Positions 32,257-62,504 of a stretch of DNA of 64,000 nt are shown here, piece by piece. How positions within the stretch are numbered: position 1 is the first letter of the stretch; every line of letters begins with the position of its first letter. The position numbers and the translations under genes are program-made. Under the pieces are notes generated by a model, which worked only from the letters and a program-made list of their open reading frames with translations, was not told where the DNA came from and searched no databases. Source of the stretch: Planctomycetota bacterium (GTDB taxonomy: Bacteria; Planctomycetota; Phycisphaerae; Phycisphaerales; Phycisphaeraceae); the NCBI GenBank assembly GCA_021413865.1, contig JAIOPN010000016.1, forward strand, positions 62,001-126,000. The letters run 5' to 3'.

Positions 32257-32279
32257 TCGGGTTGTGCATCCATGTAAGG

Positions 32280-32423
32280 TAGGGTGCGTGGAGCGGAGCG
32301 CAACGCACCATTCCCGTCATCGACAAGCCAGAATCATCCGGATCACCTTGGGTTGCAAGTCTCACGGACAAACCGCGAGAGCGTGGCGTTGGTGGTGCGT
32401 TGCGCTCCGCTCCACGCACCCTA
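32280..32423. repeat. Inverted-repeat element with 30-bp arms
   Basis: Arms 32281-32310 and 32394-32423 are perfect reverse complements (AGGGTGCGTGGAGCGGAGCG at the outer end), separated by about 80 bp. It sits between the solute-binding and permease genes on the same transcript path, so it would form a large hairpin in the mRNA. It resembles MITE-like palindromic elements; no transposase ORF fits inside. Confidence 0.85.
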
Positions 32424-32434
32424 CGCCATCGTAT

Positions 32435-50668: not shown

Positions 50669-51286
50669 ATGGACATTGAACTGATCGATCTGGAACGGCT
50701 GGAGGCGCACCCGGCGAACGCGAACGTGATGCGCGCGGTGCTGTTCGAGAAGCTCAAGGGACACATCGAGCGGACGGACCGGTACCCGCCGGTGATCGTG
50801 CGGAGAGGCAGGCGGGACGCCTGCCCCACCGGACCGGGGGAGCGGTATCAAATCCTCGACGGCCACCACCGGGTCAAGGCGCTGCGCGCGCTGGGGCGGG
50901 CGCAGGCGCGGTGCGTGGTGTGGGAGGTGACGGACGAGGAGGCGCTGGTGCTGCTGGCGACGCTGAACCGGTTGCAGGGGCGGGACGACGTTTCGCTGCG
51001 GGCGTCGCTGATGGAGGAACTGACGGCACGGGTGGGTTCGTCGCTGGCGTCGGTGGCCGCGCTGGTGCCGGAGGGCCTGCCGGATTTACGGCATCTGCTG
51101 GATGCGGCCGCGGCGCCGGTTTCGCCGCGCGGGCCGCGGCCGTTGGAGGCGATGCCGGTCGCGGTGCATTTCTTCCTGCTGCCGGCGCAGAAGTCGGCTT
51201 TGGAGCGCCGGCTGCGTGAGGCCGGCGGGACGCGAGAGGAGGCGTTGATGCGATTGGTGGAAGGAGGCGGGCATGGAAGGGCGTGA
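50669..51286 (+). CDS. ParB/sulfiredoxin-like N-terminal domain protein
   Basis: 205 residues. The ParB-N fold is visible: LEAHPANANVM, then PPVIVRRG, then ERYQILDGHHRVKALRALG (the GHHR/ILDGHH motif) and NRLQGRDDVS. Such proteins appear in phages as DNA-binding or modification-associated ParB-like nucleases. A palindromic R2 repeat lies in frame at 50805-50829 and encodes GRRDACPT within the loop between two conserved blocks. ATG 50669 preceded by GGGAGG. Overlaps the small-terminase-like gene by 14 bp. Confidence 0.78.
   Translation: MDIELIDLERLEAHPANANVMRAVLFEKLKGHIERTDRYPPVIVRRGRRDACPTGPGERYQILDGHHRVKALRALGRAQARCVVWEVTDEEALVLLATLNRLQGRDDVSLRASLMEELTARVGSSLASVAALVPEGLPDLRHLLDAAAAPVSPRGPRPLEAMPVAVHFFLLPAQKSALERRLREAGGTREEALMRLVEGGGHGRA
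50805..50829 (+). repeat. R2 palindromic repeat in ParB-like gene
   Basis: GGCAGGCGGGACGCCTGCCC core with a following CACC; read in frame as RRDACPT. Full-length paired forms of the same family are at 54545-54645 and 59837-59932. Confidence 0.88.
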
Positions 51287-51719
51287 GAGAGACTCGGCGG
51301 AGAGGGAGTTGGTCGGCGACATCCTGGCGGCGCGGCATGACCTGATCGCGCTAGCGGAACGGCACGGGATGTCGGTGGCGGAGCTGGCCGACTGGATCGG
51401 GAAAACGGAGCACCGGCGGGTGATCCGCGGGCTGTGCGAGATCGCGGACGCGCAGGCGCAGGTGCTGCTCTGCCGGTACCGGCAGATGGCGGTGGCGCAG
51501 CTGGCCAAGCTGGCGACGCAGGAGGGGGAGGCCGGCGTGAGCGCGGCGGCGCTGGAGGTGACGCGGCGTGCGTGCATGGACATGCTGAAGATCGATCTGA
51601 GGCGAGGGGATTTGCCGGCGGGGGAGGGGTCGGGCGACGCACCGGACGGGGCGTCGCTGCGTGACATGTTGTATGGGCGCGGGGCGAAACCGGGCGGCGG
51701 TGAAGGGGGGCCGGCATGA
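51273..51719 (+). CDS. Small terminase-like protein
   Basis: 148 residues with an N-terminal HTH (LIALAERHGMSVAELADWIGKTEHRRVIRGL), a long central helix, then an acidic Gly-rich tail. It directly precedes and overlaps the large terminase by 4 bp, the normal position of the DNA-recognition subunit TerS. The family itself is too variable to fix by eye. Confidence 0.65.
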   Translation: MEGRERDSAERELVGDILAARHDLIALAERHGMSVAELADWIGKTEHRRVIRGLCEIADAQAQVLLCRYRQMAVAQLAKLATQEGEAGVSAAALEVTRRACMDMLKIDLRRGDLPAGEGSGDAPDGASLRDMLYGRGAKPGGGEGGPA

Positions 51720-53224
51720 AGAACAGGAAAAAAACATCGTTGAGCGCGTGGCGTGAGTTGGAGGCGCTGCGGCCGACCACGGCGGAGGAGCTGCACACGT
51801 TCCTGCGGGTGTTCCTCGGGTTGGACGTGCCGCGCGGGACGGTGGCGGAGGGGAGCTGCGCGCCGTTTGAGTATCTGGTGCACGCGTTTTTCGAGGGGCG
51901 GGGAGGGGAAGAGAAGAAGGACGCTAAGCCGCGAGCGGCGGGGGAGGAGGAGAGTGGGGATTGCGTGGTGTGGGCGAACCGGGGCGGGGGCAAGACGCAC
52001 CTGGGGGCGGCGGCGACGCTGCTGGATTTGCTGTTCAAGCCGGGGATTCAGGTGCGGATCCTCGGCGGGAGCATGGAGCAGTCGTCGCGGATGTATGCGC
52101 ACCTGCGGCGGATGGTGGAGCGTGAGGGGCTCAGGCGGCTGCTGGCGGGGGACCCGACGCAGCGGCGCATCGAGCTGAGCAACGGTAGTGTGGCCGAGGT
52201 GCTGGCGCAATCGCAGCGTTCGGTGCGTGGCACGCGGGTTCACAAGCTGCGGTGCGACGAGGTAGAGGAGTTTGACGAGGAGGTGTGGCGGGCGGCGCAG
52301 ATGGTGACGGGGTCGGGGGAGTGCGGCGGGGTGCGGGTGCGCGGGTCGGTGGAGGTGTTATCGACGATGCACCGGCCGTTCGGGTTGATGAGCCGGCTGG
52401 TGGCGCGGCCGGGGGCGAAGGTGTTCCGGTGGTGCGCGTTGGACGTGATCCAGCGCTGCCCGCCGGAGCGTGCGTGCGATGAGTGCGACTTGTGGGAGGA
52501 TTGCGGCGGGCGTGCCAAGACCGCCGACGGGTTCGTGCCGGTGGAGGACCTGGTGGCGGCGCGGAACCGGTCGAGCGAGGAGGCGTGGGAGAGCGAGATG
52601 ATGTGCCGCCGGCCGCGGGTGGACGCGAGCGTGTACCCGACGTTCCGGGTGGAGCGGCACGTGAAGAGCGGAGACGCTAAGCCGCGAGAGGCGGGAGAAG
52701 AGGTGATCGCGGGGATGGATTTCGGGATGCGGAGCCCGCTGGTGATGTTGTGGGCGGTGGTGCGCGGGGGCGGGGCGGTGGAGGAACGGGTGGTGGAGGT
52801 GATCGGGGAGTATGTTGAATCGGGCGTGACGCTGGGGGAGCACCTGGCGAAGGTGGAGTCGCTGGGCCACCCGAGGCCGGCGTGGATCGGCGTCGATCCG
52901 GCGGGCAACCAGCGCAACGCGCAGACGGGGATGTCGGACGTGCAGGTGCTGCGTCGGGGCGGGTACGCGGTGCGGGTCCGGCCGGCCTCGATAAGGGAGG
53001 GGGTGGATCGCGTCCGCCGGCGGCTGGACCACGGCCTGCTCGTCATCGGCGAGCGCTGCCCGCGCTTGATCGAGGCGTTGACGACGTACCACTTCGACCT
53101 CAGGCGGCGGGAGCGCGAGGAGCCGGTGAAGGACGGGCCGGATCACCTCTGCGACGCGCTGCGGTACATGATCGTGAGCCTGGATCGTGGTGTGAGCCGG
53201 GCGGAGAGCCGGGGGTATCTGTAG
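51716..53224 (+). CDS. Terminase large subunit
   Basis: 502 residues. ATPase domain: Walker A WANRGGGKTHLGAA near 86-99, Walker B VHKLRCDEVEEFDEE near 175-189. Nuclease domain: IAGMDFGMRSPL near 332, WIGVDPAGNQRNAQ near 388, and DGPDHLCDALRYMIV near 475, the three acidic clusters of RNase-H-type terminases. It packages DNA into capsids by docking on a portal. Two R1 repeats are inserted in frame: at residues about 68-76 (DAKPRAAGEE) between N-terminal region and ATPase, and about 320-328 (DAKPREAGEE) just before the nuclease domain. No portal gene follows; the portal is at 16-17.5 kb on the other strand. Confidence 0.88.
   Translation: MKNRKKTSLSAWRELEALRPTTAEELHTFLRVFLGLDVPRGTVAEGSCAPFEYLVHAFFEGRGGEEKKDAKPRAAGEEESGDCVVWANRGGGKTHLGAAATLLDLLFKPGIQVRILGGSMEQSSRMYAHLRRMVEREGLRRLLAGDPTQRRIELSNGSVAEVLAQSQRSVRGTRVHKLRCDEVEEFDEEVWRAAQMVTGSGECGGVRVRGSVEVLSTMHRPFGLMSRLVARPGAKVFRWCALDVIQRCPPERACDECDLWEDCGGRAKTADGFVPVEDLVAARNRSSEEAWESEMMCRRPRVDASVYPTFRVERHVKSGDAKPREAGEEVIAGMDFGMRSPLVMLWAVVRGGGAVEERVVEVIGEYVESGVTLGEHLAKVESLGHPRPAWIGVDPAGNQRNAQTGMSDVQVLRRGGYAVRVRPASIREGVDRVRRRLDHGLLVIGERCPRLIEALTTYHFDLRRREREEPVKDGPDHLCDALRYMIVSLDRGVSRAESRGYL
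51920..51939 (+). repeat. R1 hairpin repeat, copy 5 (in large terminase)
   Basis: Exact GACGCTAAGCCGCGAGCGGC, in frame, encoding DAKPRAA before the ATPase domain. Confidence 0.9.
52673..52692 (+). repeat. R1 hairpin repeat, copy 6 (in large terminase)
   Basis: GACGCTAAGCCGCGAGAGGC, one mismatch, in the same reading frame as copy 5, encoding DAKPREA between ATPase and nuclease domains. Confidence 0.88.
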
Positions 53225-54544: not shown

Positions 54545-54645
54545 CTCTGGTGGGGCAGGCGTCCCGCCTGTCTCTTTTTTTGCTTTGAATTTGGAATCCG
54601 GCCTGGGAAGGCCGGCGGCAGGCGGGACGCCTGCCCCACCAGAGG
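54545..54645 (+). repeat. R2 full element, copy A
   Basis: Inverted copies of GGCAGGCGGGACGCCTGCCC about 55 bp apart, with a spacer containing CCGGCCTGGGAAGGCCGGCG. It is nearly the reverse complement of the element at 59837-59932, so the 95-100-bp unit is the mobile repeat. Confidence 0.88.
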
Positions 54646-55375: not shown

Positions 55376-55631
55376 CCCATAGCCCCCGGCTCCGCCGGGG
55401 GGTTCCGCGCGCGATCACCGTCAAACGCAAACGCGCCGCGGGTGTGTTGATCCAACGAAGAACCCCCCGGCGGACAGCATTATTCATCGAGCAACCGATT
55501 GCGTGGCGCAAGTACTTACGTCTGCAGAATTCACGGCTGCACTGCTAATCCTCTCCCCATTTGGCGCAATCAACGATAAAACACGAGTAGTTCCTAAGGA
55601 ATGAATAATGCTGGGAGCCGGGGGCTATGGG
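55376..55631. repeat. R3 composite repeat, copy A with 117-bp core
   Basis: Ends CCCATAGCCCCCGGC and GCCGGGGGCTATGGG are inverted. The 117-bp core is 55484-55600. It is flanked by CAGCATTATTCAT and, after the core, ATGAATAATGCTG, a perfect inverted pair. Copies B (56812-56970) and C (61748-61970) share the core identically. Confidence 0.92.
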
Positions 55632-55638
55632 AAGAGAC

Positions 55639-56253
55639 TCACCGCGCCTCGGTCAGCGCCGGGGCGGGGAGGCCCAGGAAGTTGGCGAGCAGACGCGGGC
55701 CCTCGATTGTCAGGAAGCTCTCGGGGTGGAACTGCACGCCCTCCATCGGCGCGGGGCCGAAGACGCCGGGTTTGGCGCGGAGGGCCATGATCTCTTTCTC
55801 GTCGGTCCAGGCGGAGACCTCGAAGCGTGCGTGGTCGAAGCTGTCGGGGCGGATGACGAGGCTGTGGTAGCGGGTGGCGGTGAAGGGGTTGCTCACGCCG
55901 CGGAAGAGGGTCTTGCCGTCGTGGTGGATGGGGGAGGTCTTGCCGTGCATGAGGCGGTAGTTGCGGACGACCTTCATGCCGAAGGTGTGGCCCATGCACT
56001 GGTGGCCCAGGCAGACGCCCAGGAGTGGGGTCTTGCCGGCGAAGGCTTTGATGATGTCGTTGGAGACGCCCGCCTCGTTGGGCGAGCAGGGGCCGGGCGA
56101 GACGATGACGTGGTCGGGCTTCATGCCCACGGCCTCGGCGGCGGTGATCTTGTCGTTGCGGACCACGCGCAGGTCGAGCGATGGGTCCATCTCGCCGATG
56201 CGCTGCACGAGGTTGTAGGTGAAGCTGTCGTAGTTGTCGATGAGGAGGATCAT
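55639..56253 (-). CDS. trpG: Anthranilate/aminodeoxychorismate synthase glutamine amidotransferase component
   Basis: 204 residues, class I glutamine amidotransferase: LLIDNYDSFTYNLVQ at the N-terminus, VSPGPCSPNEAG near 52, LLGVCLGHQCMGH near 76 (nucleophile Cys), and VQFHPESFLTIEG near 172 (His and Glu). It supplies ammonia for anthranilate or para-aminobenzoate synthesis; motifs cannot separate TrpG from PabA. No trpE/pabB lies beside it. Confidence 0.9.
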   Translation of the reverse strand: MILLIDNYDSFTYNLVQRIGEMDPSLDLRVVRNDKITAAEAVGMKPDHVIVSPGPCSPNEAGVSNDIIKAFAGKTPLLGVCLGHQCMGHTFGMKVVRNYRLMHGKTSPIHHDGKTLFRGVSNPFTATRYHSLVIRPDSFDHARFEVSAWTDEKEIMALRAKPGVFGPAPMEGVQFHPESFLTIEGPRLLANFLGLPAPALTEAR

Positions 56254-56291
56254 GGTATGTGGGAGTGGTGAGGGAGATGGGATAAAGAGAA

Positions 56292-56311
56292 GACGCTAAG
56301 CCGCGAGCGGC
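56292..56311 (+). repeat. R1 hairpin repeat, copy 7
   Basis: Exact GACGCTAAGCCGCGAGCGGC between trpG/pabA and a lipoprotein gene, flanked by AAAGAGAA and GTAAGAGGG purine runs. Confidence 0.9.
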
Positions 56312-56320
56312 GTAAGAGGG

Positions 56321-56764
56321 TCAGGGTTCGGGTTTGGGTTCCGCAGGCGCTGGCGCGGGCTTGGGGGCCTCGGCGGGGGGCTTTTGGACGGGCTCGACGC
56401 TGCTGAGGGCGCCGTCCTTGTACTGGAGGCGGTAGCTCTTGCCGTTGGAGTCGGTGAAGGAGGTCTGGCCGGTGTAGTTCTTGGGGAGGTTGAGCGTGTT
56501 GCCGCTGGGGGAGGCGACCTTCACGCTGTCGGACTTGTCATCGGGGAAGAGGTTGCCGATGCCGTCGCCCACGGCCTTGAAGGGGGCGAGCAGGTCCCAG
56601 TCGTCGTTTTGTTTGCGTTCGGGCGGCTTGTCGAAGCGGGTGGCGACGGGTGTGATCGGCGACGGGCTGCCGAACGAGGTGCGCGTGGTCCGCTTCGTCT
56701 CGACGCAGCCGGCCAGCGCGATGGCGAGCAGGGGGAGGGCGAGGATGGATCGGGGCCGGGGCAT
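56321..56764 (-). CDS. Predicted lipoprotein, Pro/Ala-rich C-terminus
   Basis: 147 residues, lipobox ALAGCV (Cys about residue 20), then a polar domain with SFTDSNGKSYRLQYKDGALSSVEP and a PAPAPAEPKP tail. No family recognised. A longer in-frame form reads back into the R3 flank (MMNNAVRRG) and is not used. Confidence 0.65.
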   Translation of the reverse strand: MPRPRSILALPLLAIALAGCVETKRTTRTSFGSPSPITPVATRFDKPPERKQNDDWDLLAPFKAVGDGIGNLFPDDKSDSVKVASPSGNTLNLPKNYTGQTSFTDSNGKSYRLQYKDGALSSVEPVQKPPAEAPKPAPAPAEPKPEP

Positions 56765-56811
56765 GGGTTCATTATGGTAGCAGGGTGGGGAGGGGGTACG
56801 CGGCATTCCGT

Positions 56812-56970
56812 CCCATAGCCCCCGGCGGACAGCATTATTCATCATGTGCGGCATCCTTAGGAACTACTCGTGTTTTATCGTTGATTGCGCCAAATGGGGA
56901 GAGGATTAGCAGTGCAGCCGTGAATTCTGCAGACGTAAGTACTTGCGCCACGCAATCGGTTGCTCGATGA
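56812..56970. repeat. R3 composite repeat, copy B (C-terminus of leuS)
   Basis: Core 56854-56970 is the exact reverse complement of copies A and C. The left side has CCCATAGCCCCCGGC, GGACAGCATTATTCAT. The leuS reading frame passes through the whole core and stops in the flank (TAA at 56835-56837). Confidence 0.92.
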
Positions 56971-59771
56971 TCCAGTGAGGCCTGCACTTTTTCGTCGGCG
57001 CGGGCGGCGGTCTCGATGGCGAGGTTGTCGGCGTCGGACGGCACCGTCACCCGGCCGCGCAGCTTGCCGTTGATCTGCACGGGGTACTCGACCGTCTCCT
57101 CGACCAGCATCTGCGGGTCGAACGACGGCCAACGCTCGCGCGCGAGCGTGTCGGCGTGGCCGAGCTTCGACCACAACTCCTCCGCCATGTGCGGGGCGAG
57201 CGGGGCGAGCATCAGCACGAACGGCTCGGCGACGGCGATCGGCAACGCCTTGTCCTTCGCCTCCGGCGGGTACTGTTTGAGCAATTCGTTGTTCATCTCG
57301 ATCAGCGCCGCGATGGCGACGTTGAACGAGAGGGCCTCCATCGCGTCGGTCACGCGCTTGATGGTCTTGTGCAGCAGGCGGGTGACCTCCGGCGAGGGGG
57401 CGGCGTCGGCGACGCGCGGGTTGCCGGTGGTTTCGTCGATGAAGAGCCGCCAGACGCGTTGCAGGAACCGGTGCACGCCGATGATGTCGCGGGTGTTCCA
57501 CACCTTCGATTGGTCGAGCGGGCCCAGGTACATCTCGTAGAGGCGCAGCGTGTCGCAGCCGTATTGGTCGCACACCTCGTCGGGTGCGACGGAGTTCTTG
57601 AGCGACTTGCCCATCTTGCCGAACTCTTGTTTGACCTCTTCGCCGTTGTGGTAGTGCTTGCCGCCGCGCTCCTGGATTTCCTCGGCGGGGAGGTAAACGC
57701 CGCGCGCGTCGGTGTAGGCGTGGGCCTGGATGTAGCCCTGGTTGAACAGCCGGCCGAACGGCTCGGGCGTGGAGACGTGGCCCAGGTCGAAGAGCACCTT
57801 GTGCCAGAAGCGGGCGTAGAGCAGGTGGAGCACCGCGTGCTCCGCGCCGCCGACGTAAAGATCGATCCCGCCCTTCATCCAGTAGCGCTCGGCCTCCGCG
57901 GAGACGAAGCGCTTGCCGTTCTTCGGGTCGATGAAGCGCAGGTAGTACCAGCACGACCCGGCCCACTGGGGCATGGTGTTCAGCTCACGGGCGTAGCGTG
58001 TGCCGCTGCGCGTGACGTATTTCCACGCATCGGGCGCGCGGGCCAGCGGCGGCTGCGGCGGGGCGGCGGGGTCGTCGCTGGCGGTGGGGGAGAAGTCCGC
58101 CATCTCGGGCAGGCGCACGGGCAGCTCGCTCTCGTCCAGCGCGACGACCCGGCCGTCCGGCGCGTGCAGGACCGGGAACGGCTCGCCCCAGTAGCGCTGC
58201 CGGCTGAAGAGCCAGTCGCGCAGCTTGTACTGCACCATGCCCCGGCCCAGGCCGTTCTCCTCCAGCCAGCGCGTGATCAGCGCCTTGGCCTCGGCGGTCG
58301 GCCTGCCGTCGAGGGAGATGGATTCGTTGGCGGAATCGACCGCGACGCCCTCCTGGCAGAAGGCGGCGACGGTGATGTCGATCTCTTTGCCGTCGGCGGG
58401 GGCGACGACCTGGCGGATGGGCAGGTGGAACTGCTTGGCGAAGGCCCAGTCGCGCTCGTCGTGCGCGGGCACGGCCATGATCGCGCCGGTGCCGTAGCCC
58501 GTCATCACGTAGTCGGCGATCCAGACCGGGATGCGCTCGTTGTTGACCGGGTTGAGGGCGTAGCCGCCGGTGAAGACGCCGGTCTTCTGGCCCGAGGCGG
58601 CCTCGGCCTGGCGCTGGGCGTCGCTCTTGGCGGCGGTCTGCCTGCGGTACTCCTCCACCGCCGGCCACTGCGCGCCGCTGGTGAGCGACTCGACCATCGG
58701 GTGCTCGGGGGCGAGCACCATGTAGGTTGCGCCGAAGAGCGTGTCGGGCCGGGTGGTGAAGACGCTGATCGTCTCGCTGCCGTCGCCCGCCTCGCCGACG
58801 TCAACGCTGTCGCCCCGGGGCCTGGCGCCGTCGCTGAAGGCGACGTCGAACTCGACGCGCGCGCCGGTGCTGCGGCCGATCCAGTTGCGCTGCATCAGCT
58901 TGATCGCCTCGGGCCAGTCCACCATGCTCAGGTCGCTCTCGAGGCGGTCCGCCAGGGCGGTGATGCGGAGCATCCACTGCTTGAGGGGGCGTTTGAAGAC
59001 GGGGTGGTTGCCGCGCTCGGACTTGCCGTCGTTGGTCACTTCTTCGTTGGCCAGCACGGTGCCCAGGGCGGGGCACCAGTTGACGTTGACCTCCGCGAGG
59101 TAGGCCAGGCGCACCTCGTCGAGCAGGTTGAGGCGGGCCTCCTGGGTCAGCTCGCCCCAGGTGCGCGTGCCGATGGGCTGGCCTGTCAGCGCGGTCAGGT
59201 CCCGGCCCGCGCCGGCGTACACCAGCTCGCCGTCGGCGTCGATGAGGTACTGCTCGCTCTCGAGGCCGCGGATCAGCTCGGCGATGGGGCGGGCCTGTTT
59301 TTTCGACGGGTCGAACCAGGCGTTGTGGAGCTGGAGGAAAATCCACTGCGTCCAGCGGTAGTACTCCTCGTCGGTGGTCGCCAGCGCGCGGTCCCAGTCG
59401 TAGGAGAGCCCCAGCCGTTTGAGCTGGCGGGTCATGTTGGCGATGTTCTTCTCGGTGGTGATGCGCGGGTGGACGCCGTGCTCGACGGCGAACTGCTCGG
59501 CGGGCAGGCCGAAGGCGTCGTAGCCCATGGGGTGGAGCACGTTGAAGCCGCGCGTGCGCTTGTAGCGGGCGATGATGTCGGTGGCGATGTAGCCCAGCGG
59601 GTGGCCGACGTGCAGCCCCACGCCCGAGGGGTAGGGGAACATGTCCAGGACGTAGTACTTGGGCGCGTTGGGGTCGAAGCCCGGGTCGCCGGGGTTGAGC
59701 GTGCGGAACGTGCCGAGCTGCGCCCAGCGCTCCTGCCAGCGCTTCTCGATGGCGGTGAAGTCGTATTGCAT
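56835..59771 (-). CDS. leuS: Leucyl-tRNA synthetase with a repeat-encoded C-terminus
   Basis: 978 residues. Class I signatures: MFPYPSGVGLHVGHPLGY (HIGH region) near 43-60 and KMGKSLKNSVAPDEV near 685 (KMSKS). The CP1 editing domain lies around 230-430. The C-terminal domain reaches VQINGKLRGRVTVPSDAD and EKVQASL, but the usual final ~20 residues (G-K-T-V-x-K-V-I-x-V-P-G-x-x-N) are absent; instead 42 residues come from the 117-bp R3 core and its flank (HRATDCVAQVLTSAEFT...). ATG 59771 starts MQYDFTAIEKRWQ, the normal N-terminus. In E. coli the C-terminal tail contacts tRNA, so activity with this end should be examined. Confidence 0.9.
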   Translation of the reverse strand: MQYDFTAIEKRWQERWAQLGTFRTLNPGDPGFDPNAPKYYVLDMFPYPSGVGLHVGHPLGYIATDIIARYKRTRGFNVLHPMGYDAFGLPAEQFAVEHGVHPRITTEKNIANMTRQLKRLGLSYDWDRALATTDEEYYRWTQWIFLQLHNAWFDPSKKQARPIAELIRGLESEQYLIDADGELVYAGAGRDLTALTGQPIGTRTWGELTQEARLNLLDEVRLAYLAEVNVNWCPALGTVLANEEVTNDGKSERGNHPVFKRPLKQWMLRITALADRLESDLSMVDWPEAIKLMQRNWIGRSTGARVEFDVAFSDGARPRGDSVDVGEAGDGSETISVFTTRPDTLFGATYMVLAPEHPMVESLTSGAQWPAVEEYRRQTAAKSDAQRQAEAASGQKTGVFTGGYALNPVNNERIPVWIADYVMTGYGTGAIMAVPAHDERDWAFAKQFHLPIRQVVAPADGKEIDITVAAFCQEGVAVDSANESISLDGRPTAEAKALITRWLEENGLGRGMVQYKLRDWLFSRQRYWGEPFPVLHAPDGRVVALDESELPVRLPEMADFSPTASDDPAAPPQPPLARAPDAWKYVTRSGTRYARELNTMPQWAGSCWYYLRFIDPKNGKRFVSAEAERYWMKGGIDLYVGGAEHAVLHLLYARFWHKVLFDLGHVSTPEPFGRLFNQGYIQAHAYTDARGVYLPAEEIQERGGKHYHNGEEVKQEFGKMGKSLKNSVAPDEVCDQYGCDTLRLYEMYLGPLDQSKVWNTRDIIGVHRFLQRVWRLFIDETTGNPRVADAAPSPEVTRLLHKTIKRVTDAMEALSFNVAIAALIEMNNELLKQYPPEAKDKALPIAVAEPFVLMLAPLAPHMAEELWSKLGHADTLARERWPSFDPQMLVEETVEYPVQINGKLRGRVTVPSDADNLAIETAARADEKVQASLDHRATDCVAQVLTSAEFTAALLILSPFGAINDKTRVVPKDAAHDE

Positions 59772-59836
59772 ATCGGCATGAGGATACGGGATCGCCGCCG
59801 GGCGGGACAAACGCGCGGGGAAGGGATTGTGTGGAA

Positions 59837-59932
59837 TGGGTGGGGCAGGCGTCCCGCCTGCCGCCAGCCTTCCGAGGCCGGGTCTGAATTTCGCAGAAAG
59901 AGAAGAGACAGGCGGGACGCCTGCCCCACCGG
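59837..59932 (-). repeat. R2 full element, copy B
   Basis: Inverted copies of GGCAGGCGGGACGCCTGCCC separated by about 55 bp. Spacer resembles that of the 54545-54645 element in reverse. It lies between glgA-like and leuS genes. Confidence 0.88.
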
Positions 59933-59933
59933 A

Positions 59934-61739
59934 TTACTTCTTCGCCCCGCCGTTCCCGTTGACGGCGGGCAGGTTCCGCAGGCGCTCGAGCATCGGCAGC
60001 AGCGACTCGGCGATCACCTGGTCCCAACCCATGCGGGCGACGAGCGCCTGGCCGGCGTGCAGGAGCTTGTGCTGGCGCTCCTCGTCCCAGGGCAAACGGT
60101 CCATGATCTGGTCGGCGACGCCGCGCGCGACGGCTTCTTCGATCGCGTTGCGGTCCTCTCGCGTCATTTTCTTGAGCTCTTCGATCGTGCGCGGGCGGTC
60201 CAGGCGGGTGAAGTCGGCGACGATGACGTTGTGCGACCCGTGGCCGTGCGTCACGTGGTTGACGAAGCCCTGGCAGCCGCAGACGTTGGAGATGACGCAG
60301 AGCGCGCCGGAGCCCAGCGGCTCGAGCGGGCTGATGCCGAAGGGCTCGTAGGTCGCCATGCCGAACTCGACGTCGGTGGCGCGGCGGAGGTCGGCGAAGT
60401 CCATTTTCTCGGGCAGCCGTTTGCCGATGCGGGATCGCGACCAGCCGAACTGATTCACGAGGACGATCTGCACCGCCTCGTGGTCGGCGTTGAACAGCTC
60501 GGCGTCGTTGTGGATGTCGCTCTCGGGGCCGACCAGGTCGGGGTAGCCGGGCTTGTGGACCCGCGGCCAGCCGTAGTGCTCCTCCATGGCGGCGACGTCC
60601 TGCGGCCGCCGCGCCCCGCCGCCGCTGGTGAGGATGTAGAGGATGCCGGTCTTGCCCTGTGCGGAGAGGCGTTCATCCAGCGCGTGGCAGACCTTCATGT
60701 CGCGCCAGAGCCCCTTGCTGATGACGGGGCGGGTGACGTGCGTCATGAGCACGTCGGGGCAGTAGCCGACCAGCGCCTGGGAATAATCGAGGAGCATCTT
60801 GCGGCTGGCGTTTTTCTGCGCGGGTGTGACCTTCATCGCGGGGACGCCGTTGTAGACCAGGTCGATGGGGTGGTCGTCGAACTTGCTGTTGAGGAATTGC
60901 AACTCGTCGCGGGTGCGGTCGCCGACGGCGATGACGCCGTCGCACAGGTGCGACCGGCCGACCAGGGCGTGGCGGAAGAGGGCGTCCATGGAGCCGAAGA
61001 CGTCCTCGACGTAGAGCCCGTCGTCCATCGCCTGGTCGAGGACGTTGTAGAACATGGTGTCGTGGCCGGGGTGGTCCTCGACGATGCGGCGGGCGGTGGC
61101 GCACTCGTGGGCGTGGAAGACGGTGTGGAACTTTTTCTGGCCGTCGAGGATGGCCTTGAGCGCCGCGGGCATGCCCATGAACTCGTGGCTGAAGAGCACG
61201 CAGGGGAGCTCGTCGTCGTTGAGCATGGCGGAAAGGGCGTAGAAGGCGGGCTCGGCGAGGCGGACGTATTCCTCGTAGTCCCAGTTTTTTTCGTAGCGGC
61301 CGCTGTCCAGGCCGAACGTCTCCCAGAGGCGGAGCTTGAAGACGTTGAGCCGGTCGGGGTTGACGCGGAAGACGTCGATGAGGAGGACCTCGGACTCGCC
61401 GGACCTGCCCTCGCCGCCGCCGTCGTAGTGGCGCGTGCCGTAAACGATGGCGACGTTGAACGCCCACTCGATGGGCTTGAACTTGCCGGAGAACCCGCCG
61501 CGGTCGATGTTGTCGATCGAGCTGTAGAGGACCTTGCCGTGGTCGCCCAGGCGGTGCTCCGGGTCGGTGGACATGTGCGTGGCGGTGGGGCCGACGAGGA
61601 TGGAACGGCCGACGTGTTTTTGATACACGGGGCTGATCATCAGGCCCTCGAGCACGGTGCCGATGCCGCCGAGTTGCTCGACGGCCTCGTGCGTGACGTG
61701 GGCGAAGGTGAGCGGCTTGCGGTCGGGTTTGGGGGGCAT
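59934..61739 (-). CDS. Glycogen synthase-like glycosyltransferase (GT3/GT5 type)
   Basis: 601 residues. HVTHEAVEQLGGIGTVLEG at the N-terminus is the glycogen-synthase glucosyl-donor loop pattern (K/x-x-G-G); residues 190-200 SHEFMGMPA, then C-terminal GT-B features FGMATYEPFGISPLEPLGSGALCVISNV near 510-540 with the catalytic Glu (E-P-F-G-I-S-P-L-E). It elongates glycogen in the cytosol; a debranching enzyme is at 43.7 kb. The exact family (GT3-like or GT5) I cannot decide by eye. Start ATG 61739 follows the R3 copy C flank, which occupies its upstream region. Confidence 0.82.
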   Translation of the reverse strand: MPPKPDRKPLTFAHVTHEAVEQLGGIGTVLEGLMISPVYQKHVGRSILVGPTATHMSTDPEHRLGDHGKVLYSSIDNIDRGGFSGKFKPIEWAFNVAIVYGTRHYDGGGEGRSGESEVLLIDVFRVNPDRLNVFKLRLWETFGLDSGRYEKNWDYEEYVRLAEPAFYALSAMLNDDELPCVLFSHEFMGMPAALKAILDGQKKFHTVFHAHECATARRIVEDHPGHDTMFYNVLDQAMDDGLYVEDVFGSMDALFRHALVGRSHLCDGVIAVGDRTRDELQFLNSKFDDHPIDLVYNGVPAMKVTPAQKNASRKMLLDYSQALVGYCPDVLMTHVTRPVISKGLWRDMKVCHALDERLSAQGKTGILYILTSGGGARRPQDVAAMEEHYGWPRVHKPGYPDLVGPESDIHNDAELFNADHEAVQIVLVNQFGWSRSRIGKRLPEKMDFADLRRATDVEFGMATYEPFGISPLEPLGSGALCVISNVCGCQGFVNHVTHGHGSHNVIVADFTRLDRPRTIEELKKMTREDRNAIEEAVARGVADQIMDRLPWDEERQHKLLHAGQALVARMGWDQVIAESLLPMLERLRNLPAVNGNGGAKK

Positions 61740-61747
61740 GTGCTTTT

Positions 61748-61970
61748 CCCATAGCCCCCGGCTCGGCCGGGGGGTTCTTGGGCGATCTACGAACTCCGCA
61801 CATGCGCCGCGAGACGGTGATCCAACGCGGAACCCCCCGGCGGACAGCATTATTCATCGAGCAACCGATTGCGTGGCGCAAGTACTTACGTCTGCAGAAT
61901 TCACGGCTGCACTGCTAATCCTCTCCCCATTTGGCGCAATCAACGATAAAACACGAGTAGTTCCTAAGGA
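61748..61970. repeat. R3 composite repeat, copy C (C-terminus of ilvN/H)
   Basis: CCCATAGCCCCCGGC (61748-61762), a variable 50-bp section, ACAGCATTATTCAT, then the 117-bp core 61854-61970. Left 30 bp before the core match copy A almost exactly. The ilvN reading frame enters the core and ends on its last codon, TGA at 61854-61856. Confidence 0.92.
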
Positions 61971-62504
61971 CACGGCCTTGGCGGGCCCGCCGCTGCCGCG
62001 CGGCATGGCGATCACGCCCGTGCGCGCCAGCTCCACGATCCCGTAGGGCTGGATCAGCTCCATGAACGCCTCGAGCTTTTCCTCGCTGCCCGAGAGCTCG
62101 ATCATCAGTTTGTCGGGGCTGACGTCCACGACCTTGGCGCGGAACAGGTTGGCCAGGGTGATGATCTCCTCGCGCTTGTCCGACGCGCCGGCGGCGGTGG
62201 CGGTGGAGACGGCCACGAGCATCAGGTCGCGCTCCACGAACGCCACGTCGGTGTAGTCCACGACCTTGACGACCGGGACGAGCTTCTGGAGCTGCTTGCG
62301 GACCTGCTCGAGGACGGCGTTGTCGCCGTACACGGTGATGGTCATGCGGGAGAACTCGGGGTTCTCGGTCCGGCCGACCACGAGGGAGTCGATGTTGAAG
62401 CCGCGGGCCGCGAACATGCCGGCGACCTGGGCGAGCACGCCCGGTTCGTTCGTGACCAGCGCGGCGATCACGTGCCGCATCAGTGGGGTTTGGGTGTCGG
62501 TCAT
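61854..62504 (-). CDS. ilvN: Acetolactate synthase small (regulatory) subunit with a repeat-encoded tail
   Basis: 216 residues. ACT domain HVIAALVTNEPGVLAQVAGMFAARGFNIDSLVVG at 11-45, central RKQLQKLVPVVKVVDYT, and the C-terminal small-subunit domain ending IQPYGIVELARTGVIAMPRG near 165. It confers valine feedback control on the large subunit (not in the window). The family normally ends soon after this point; here 38 more residues (SLGTTRVLSLIAPNGERISS and on) are encoded wholly by the R3 core, with the core supplying the stop. ATG 62504. Confidence 0.9.
   Translation of the reverse strand: MTDTQTPLMRHVIAALVTNEPGVLAQVAGMFAARGFNIDSLVVGRTENPEFSRMTITVYGDNAVLEQVRKQLQKLVPVVKVVDYTDVAFVERDLMLVAVSTATAAGASDKREEIITLANLFRAKVVDVSPDKLMIELSGSEEKLEAFMELIQPYGIVELARTGVIAMPRGSGGPAKAVSLGTTRVLSLIAPNGERISSAAVNSADVSTCATQSVAR

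Follow-up and report, generated by a model that had tools for sequence, protein, structure and literature searches.

A probable miniature transposable element in palindromic hairpin loops near gene ends, and the altered C-termini of LeuS and IlvN, in a Phycisphaeraceae genome

The stretch of DNA analyzed here (the window) comprises 64,000 nucleotides, positions 62,001 to 126,000 of contig JAIOPN010000016.1, from a draft genome (GCA_021413865.1) of a Planctomycetota bacterium of the Phycisphaeraceae that amounts to 4.37 Mb in 67 contigs and is 95% complete. Towards its right end the genes trpG, leuS and ilvN each stand beside a copy (A, B and C, respectively) of a 117-bp core sequence, at 55484-55600 (+), 56854-56970 (-) and 61854-61970 (+). 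A first-pass annotation, made from the sequence alone, had described the three cores as identical and of odd base composition, and direct comparison gave 100% identity over the 117 bp and a GC fraction of 0.50 vs. 0.676 for the window. The core makes up the last 38 residues of IlvN (216 aa) together with its TGA stop, 39 codons in all, as stated in that annotation. LeuS (991 aa) ends in ...KVQASLD followed by HRATDC...AAHDE, a tail supplied mostly by the core as had been claimed, with a length of 44 residues instead of the 42 given earlier. The GC-rich composite reported beside each copy was recovered as CCCATAGCCCCCGGC and GGACAGCATTATTCAT, which adjoin all three copies, and the inverted pair CAGCATTATTCAT/ATGAATAATGCTG seen to bracket copy A proved to be a terminal inverted repeat (TIR); CAGCATTATTCAT has four sites in the window with up to 2 mismatches, vs. 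0.24 expected.

Copies of the core also occur outside the window. The whole genome holds eight of them (identity 88-100%), five of them elsewhere (88-98%), and no copy of the element was found in the 60 relatives searched, 36 of the same family and 24 of the same order, with no genome of the same genus among them. A search of plasmids with copy A and its arms gave no match (phages and E. coli genomes were outside that search). Cores A, B and C have letters of their own in common (TTAGGAACT, where the copies on contigs C58, C17:1452, C53 and C33 have TTGGGAAAT or TTGGAAAAT) and are thus each other's nearest relatives.

The core forms the middle of a non-coding element of 139-150 bp, which is complete, with both arms, at five of the eight core copies and is bounded there by the TIR CAGCATTATTCATC with 0-1 mismatches. 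The complete copies on C58, C17, C53 and C33 read CCCATAGCCCCCGGC-NNN-CAGCATTATTCATC ... GATGAATAATGCTG-NNN-GCCGGGGGCTATGGG, two of them with one-letter variants in the outer arm. The outer sequences are the two halves of a repetitive extragenic palindrome (REP), a hairpin of the form CCCATAGCCCCCGGC-NNN-GCCGGGGGCTATGGG, so that the element lies in the 3-nt loop between them. The element is very probably a miniature inverted-repeat transposable element (MITE), related to an insertion sequence (IS) with a DDE_Tnp_1 transposase and inserting in the loops of REP hairpins, and we infer that the MITE itself has been mobile. A second kind of MITE is present at C53:4848-5090 (locus L127), with the same TIR, an exact TCC duplication and another inverted repeat (GGTGCGTTGCGCT...) as its interior; locus L110 resembles a one-ended copy of this type.

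The related IS was found by searching the genome with AGCATTATTCAT, which occurs at 24 places (none for the reversed control). The copy at C26:26687-27669 (hairpin halves included) has the same TIR and REP flanks as the MITE, lies in the hairpin loop in the same manner, is about 950 bp long and contains a transposase frame of 253 codons. This protein matches DDE_Tnp_1 (PF01609) with 27.3 bits against a cut-off of 23, and the best-scoring NCBIfam model, IS5_3, gives 23.7 bits vs. a cut-off of 110 and is thus below the family cut-off. Eight of nine transposase homologues match IS5_3, and eight also match IS982 and IS1182. Besides sharing the TIR, the MITE aligns for about 150 bp, with many differences, to that end of the C26 IS at which the transposase gene starts, and its opposite TIR aligns separately. 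From this alignment we read the MITE as a putative internally deleted relative of the IS, in which the IS end with the transposase promoter region and first codons would have been fused to the opposite terminal repeat.

The target is abundant. The REP arm CATAGCCCCCGGC occurs with at most one mismatch at 73 + 74 (147) genome sites vs. 2 + 1 for the reversed control. The arms stand either as bare hairpins, with a spacing of 16 bp between arm starts, or as inverted pairs at a distance of about 97 bp. We examined 73 REP clusters, drawn from the exact sites among the matches listed plus the window, of which two were duplicates, and located the neighboring gene ends with simple codon-usage predictions. 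Nearly all of the remaining 71 clusters lie between predicted genes, as expected of a high-copy intergenic palindrome. A predicted 3' end is found within 60 bp at 53 of the 71, only a 5' end at 9 and neither at 9; the median distance is 12.5 bp to 3' ends vs. 63 bp to 5' ends (ends between -200 and 400 bp). At 8/71 clusters (L049, L187, L195, L196, L198, L204, L206 and L207) a TAG stop codon lies inside the REP arm itself. The element therefore sits at gene ends because its target, the loop of the REP hairpin, mostly lies there.

Within the order, 400 genomes were searched for exact matches to CATAGCCCCCGGC, which were present in 52, counting the own genome, with 104 places in the genome studied here and the next-highest counts, 21, 15 and 10 places, all in one other genus; the combined hairpin-plus-TIR pattern had no match across the genome collection when the own genome was left out. 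Of the five Y1_Tnp matches in the genome, one was classified; it scores as IS200, with the REP_Tyr model below cut-off. We found no account of this hairpin in the literature on terminators as IS targets, on IS5 with REP or on Planctomycetes IS with REP, which was consulted mostly by title. Two other kinds of palindrome were noted in the window. One, at 32279-32424, is a GTAG-headed inverted repeat with arms of 32 bp, 100% complementary and 82 bp apart, whose first letters place it with the GTAG type of REP. The other, a family built around GGTGGGGCAGGCGTCCCGCCTG, occurs at 50804-50833, 54546-54640 and 59839-59933, with 86% identity between two 95-bp stretches when one of them is inverted.

To what extent the placement in hairpin loops is shared by related transposases can be read from their own insertion sites. 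A homologue of the transposase (E 1e-10 or better) was found in 21 of the 400 genomes, own included. Twenty homologue loci were scored on three features (terminal repeats, a duplicated loop and a stem in the flanks) and compared with 20 local shuffles apiece; seven of them, the own locus L225 together with L226, L228, L231, L234, L235 and L241, beat all 20 shuffles; L241 combines a good stem with weak terminal repeats. The shuffle score missed six copies in genome G090; these, along with four in G052, were inspected by eye and with a pattern. A clear stem flanks nine of these ten (L256 with one mismatch), and the 4-nt loop is exactly duplicated at five of the six G090 copies and three of the four G052 copies. 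Other homologous ISs lie in hairpin loops in G160 (AAA), G026 (CGCG) and G011 (TTAA). Neither the stem nor the loop is constant from genome to genome or, in part, from copy to copy (loops GCGA, TCGC, TTGC, TATT, AATA, AAA, CGCG and TTAA), and these six genomes, own included, suggest that the hairpin may matter more for insertion than its letters. When three of the transposases were used to scan public genomes more widely, 11 loci came up, all in records labelled Phycisphaerales or other Planctomycetota, and no new hairpin case.

Several observations weigh against this picture. Thirteen of the 20 scored loci did not rise above their shuffles, L230 among them with no candidate at all, and a second pattern search (stem of at least 4) at 13 homologue loci found no hairpin. 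Among the loci that did score, L226 exceeds its shuffles by a single point, and L228 and L235 have a different geometry, odd lengths and 2-bp repeats, which may be flanking repeats or chance; the G090 copy L258 has a weak stem only. In the comparison that gave the MITE-IS alignment and the loop duplications of G090 and G052, the element ends were fixed after the results of the reading by eye and the shuffle scan were known. Similarity between the MITE and the IS copies available is distant, with no immediate parent among those of the genome, several of which are cut by contig ends. A 5' end stands on either side at 14 of the 71 REP clusters, and the 3' bias was counted without a random-intergenic control. 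Finally, the loop triplet is exactly duplicated at two of the seven complete IS or MITE copies away from contig ends (copy A, GGA, and C53:5062, TCC), and the other five carry mixed triplets (TCG...CGA twice, GGA...CGA twice and TCT...CGA). We assume that the latter arose by recombination between copies, the only account we can offer.

The ends of LeuS and IlvN were aligned with those of relatives, and both are absent from the window proteins. For LeuS, 29 loci were taken, 23 aligned (6 gave none) and one of these was cut by the locus end; all 22 readable relatives have a GKTVRKVIVVPGKLVNIVA-like end. The window LeuS matches the curated model only to position 826 of 843, and the first-pass annotation was right that the usual C-terminal tail is lacking. 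There is a single leuS in the assembly, its other own matches being core copies and weak synthetase-like hits, and a free LeuS tail was not found elsewhere in the assembly with a short query of limited sensitivity (leuS itself E 0.004, one match E 0.65). IlvN was matched in 25 of 40 relatives (L134-L159), and all 25 have a conserved xLPPG end after a variable linker. We know of no function for this end. Because the window IlvN matches the curated IlvN models almost to their ends, what is missing from it would be a tail of the lineage's own.

Copies B and C (Table 1) differ from copy A in being one-ended. The missing element arm is the one beside leuS at B and the one beside ilvN at C; on the far side of the core, the next gene is a lipoprotein gene at B and glgA at C. 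Among the 14 IS and MITE copies away from contig ends, seven are complete, six are one-ended and one has a weak, non-hairpin partner only; four of the six one-ended copies (L008, L110, L123 and L126) are away from leuS and ilvN. The model matches of three genes next to such hairpins, trpG (at the complete copy A), nifS and ksgA, extend almost to the model end. Four of the genes with a TAG stop in the REP arm were checked for lost ends, namely nifS and ksgA, both near-complete, the gene at L207, which matched only models below cut-off, and the gene at L204, which matched none. A PhyH-type gene (L007; Pfam PhyH) continues into a complete element, of which it uses a third frame.

Table 1 Positions of the MITE copies, their flanking palindromes and the genes they enter, and of a separate repeat, in the window
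Feature	Position	Strand	Remarks
Left flank of copy A, REP pair (bacterial interspersed mosaic element, BIME)	55376..55474		First hairpin CCCATAGCCCCCGGCTCCGCCGGGGGG; from ~55460 left half of second hairpin, loop triplet GGA 55472-55474
MITE copy A, complete, 139 bp	55475..55613	+	TIR CAGCATTATTCATC 55475-55488, right TIR 55601-55613; lacks 11 bp beside right TIR compared with full-length copies
117-bp core, copy A	55484..55600	+	Sequence identity
Duplicated triplet GGA and right REP half GCCGGGGGCTATGGG	55614..55631		7 bp from trpG stop codon
REP half left at copy B and triplet GGA	56812..56829		Sequence reading
MITE copy B, one-ended	56830..56970	-	Core 56854-56970 with a single TIR; second TIR mostly absent, as is the REP half beyond it, leuS joined directly
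leuS	56835..59810	-	Conserved last ~19 codons gone; 44 residues from MITE copy B instead
REP pair (BIME) left of copy C	61748..61844		Loop triplet GGA 61842-61844
MITE copy C, one-ended	61845..61970	+	Core 61854-61970 with its left TIR; right TIR absent, as is the REP half beyond it, ilvN joined directly
ilvN	61854..62504	-	Conserved ...LPPG end gone; 38 residues from MITE copy C instead
GACGCTAAGCCGCGAGCGGC sites, 20 bp each	15467, 38721, 48957, 50386, 51920, 52673, 56292	+	Pattern match

The following sequence of events would account for this arrangement. The IS and the MITE would enter the 3-nt loop of the REP hairpin (stem CCCATAGCCCCCGGC), the triplet there would be duplicated in the process, and, with REP hairpins mostly a few bases past stop codons, the MITE would land at gene 3' ends. 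One arm is gone at both B and C, and a deletion is therefore indicated, which would later have removed one element arm plus the end of leuS or ilvN; its size may be put only roughly, at 100-170 bp, depending on the length of the lost spacer. Both genes would then read into the MITE up to the first in-frame stop. Earlier it had been proposed that the repeat replaces or extends gene ends. It does form the end of two genes that are without their normal ends, and nothing suggests an element purpose-built for end replacement.

Whether the deletions took place in the organism is a separate matter, on which we lean slightly towards the affirmative. That two conserved ends should be lost within 5 kb, in single-copy genes of one draft genome, is suspicious and speaks against it. 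It is possible, at a little under even odds, that the junctions at LeuS and IlvN are assembly errors, i.e. that the element is real and the assembler lost the gene end, the spacer and one arm of a long inverted repeat at B and C; this would touch the deletion part only. The retention of both ends in every readable relative agrees with such an error, as do the lack of a second leuS and of a separate tail in the assembly (the latter within the sensitivity of the short query), the identity of cores A, B and C, and the contigs C2, C13, C17 and C25, which end inside the related IS as in a short-read draft. Yet a misjoin inside the repeat would, by reasoning, still leave the junctions between gene and core supported by reads, and the four one-ended copies elsewhere are also without one arm. 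Copy B contains 11 bp absent from A and is therefore not a pasted copy of A, the differences of both B and C from A are not such as pasting would produce, and trpG, beside the complete copy A, is near-complete against its model.

Two further explanations concern the element itself. Palindromic elements of the Rickettsia kind (RPE) are in-frame insertions in genes that keep the reading frame, and the core might likewise be a protein-coding palindrome, spread via a tolerated peptide on both strands. To the first-pass annotation the repeat had looked like a mobile sequence open on both strands; its mobile-element anatomy and dispersal agree with the first part. As for the openness, the LeuS frame is open in all eight cores and the IlvN frame is open up to the last codon (one codon earlier in L007 and L008), but 874 of 5000 letter shuffles of the core are open on both strands as well, so the double open frame needs no explanation. 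Moreover, the three genes (LeuS, IlvN and PhyH-type) read the core in three different frames, all at gene ends, the LeuS frame is shifted relative to the transposase frame of the related IS, and the three peptides of core and IS end have no Pfam match. An origin of the RPE kind is thus very improbable. Hardly more credible is a conserved structured RNA or regulatory element without mobility, which a long inverted repeat mostly behind genes might suggest: the element resembles an IS end, is absent from 60/60 relatives, and yielded nothing above the Rfam gathering score in the eight core loci, where the eight weak hits listed are far below it and belong to microRNA-like or antisense models. An integron-like site was rejected by reading alone.

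A separate repeat of the window, GACGCTAAGCCGCGAGCGGC, has seven sites (up to 3 mismatches), all of the same strand, where 0.02 would be expected. A long open reading frame at 51716-53224, without a Pfam match, contains two of them in frame (...KKDAKPRAAGEEE..., ...SGDAKPREAGEE...), and the repeat looks like a protein-coding palindrome.

To return to the MITE and its relatives in hairpin loops, the location of the target explains why an apparently coding repeat appears at gene ends. An IS group that occupies loops of differing stem and loop sequence also makes recognition of DNA structure by DDE transposases a testable matter. Should the endings of LeuS and IlvN prove real, nature has tested here how far a cell can do without two conserved C-termini; otherwise they are a warning that false gene ends can be created at repeats of this kind in draft assemblies. 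The broadest reading would be that a Phycisphaerales DDE transposase group (37-50% identical to this one) picks GC-rich hairpin loops by structure and not by sequence and that, in this way, its MITE rewrote two conserved C-termini, the living cell using a LeuS that has lost its conserved last strand and an IlvN that has lost its LPPG end. We regard it as doubtful that all of this holds together.

MITEs, insertion at the REP axis and MITE-derived protein tails are each already known; the parts worth a further look are the hairpin-loop habit of divergent relatives and the loss of the LeuS and IlvN ends. The portions consulted of PMC1525189 place the insertion point of ISPsy8 precisely on the axis of a REP hairpin, with a 3-bp direct repeat, and describe ISRm22 as lying at a palindrome axis with some mixed direct repeats explained by recombination between copies (Tobes and Pareja 2006). 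The elements described here resemble both in lying on the axis of a palindrome, with an exact short direct repeat at two of the seven complete copies, and differ from what is given there in being a Phycisphaerales DDE_Tnp_1 IS plus a MITE, with divergent relatives that use different hairpins. The same source, as far as seen, places the IS5-family ISNm1106 only near REPs. Our transposase is like the IS5 group in its best NCBIfam model (IS5_3) and DDE_Tnp_1 domain, and unlike it in a score far below the curated cut-off and in homologues that match IS982 and IS1182 equally often (8/9). According to the parts seen of PMC3733652, REPs and BIMEs are short, high-copy intergenic hairpins, single or in inverted pairs, and are present in Planctomycetes; the hairpin described here is likewise short, high-copy, intergenic and single or paired, and by eye is without the GTAG or CGTC tag of the REP families treated there. 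The closest parallel to the protein tails appears to be QMITE1 and QMITE2 of Coxiella burnetii, which overlap gene 3' ends and presumably supply the last 33 residues of EnhC in one strain (PMC5896051, seen in part). Here too a MITE at gene 3' ends supplies C-terminal residues; in contrast to the overlaps and single extension reported in that account, the conserved ends of LeuS and IlvN are gone together with one arm of the MITE.

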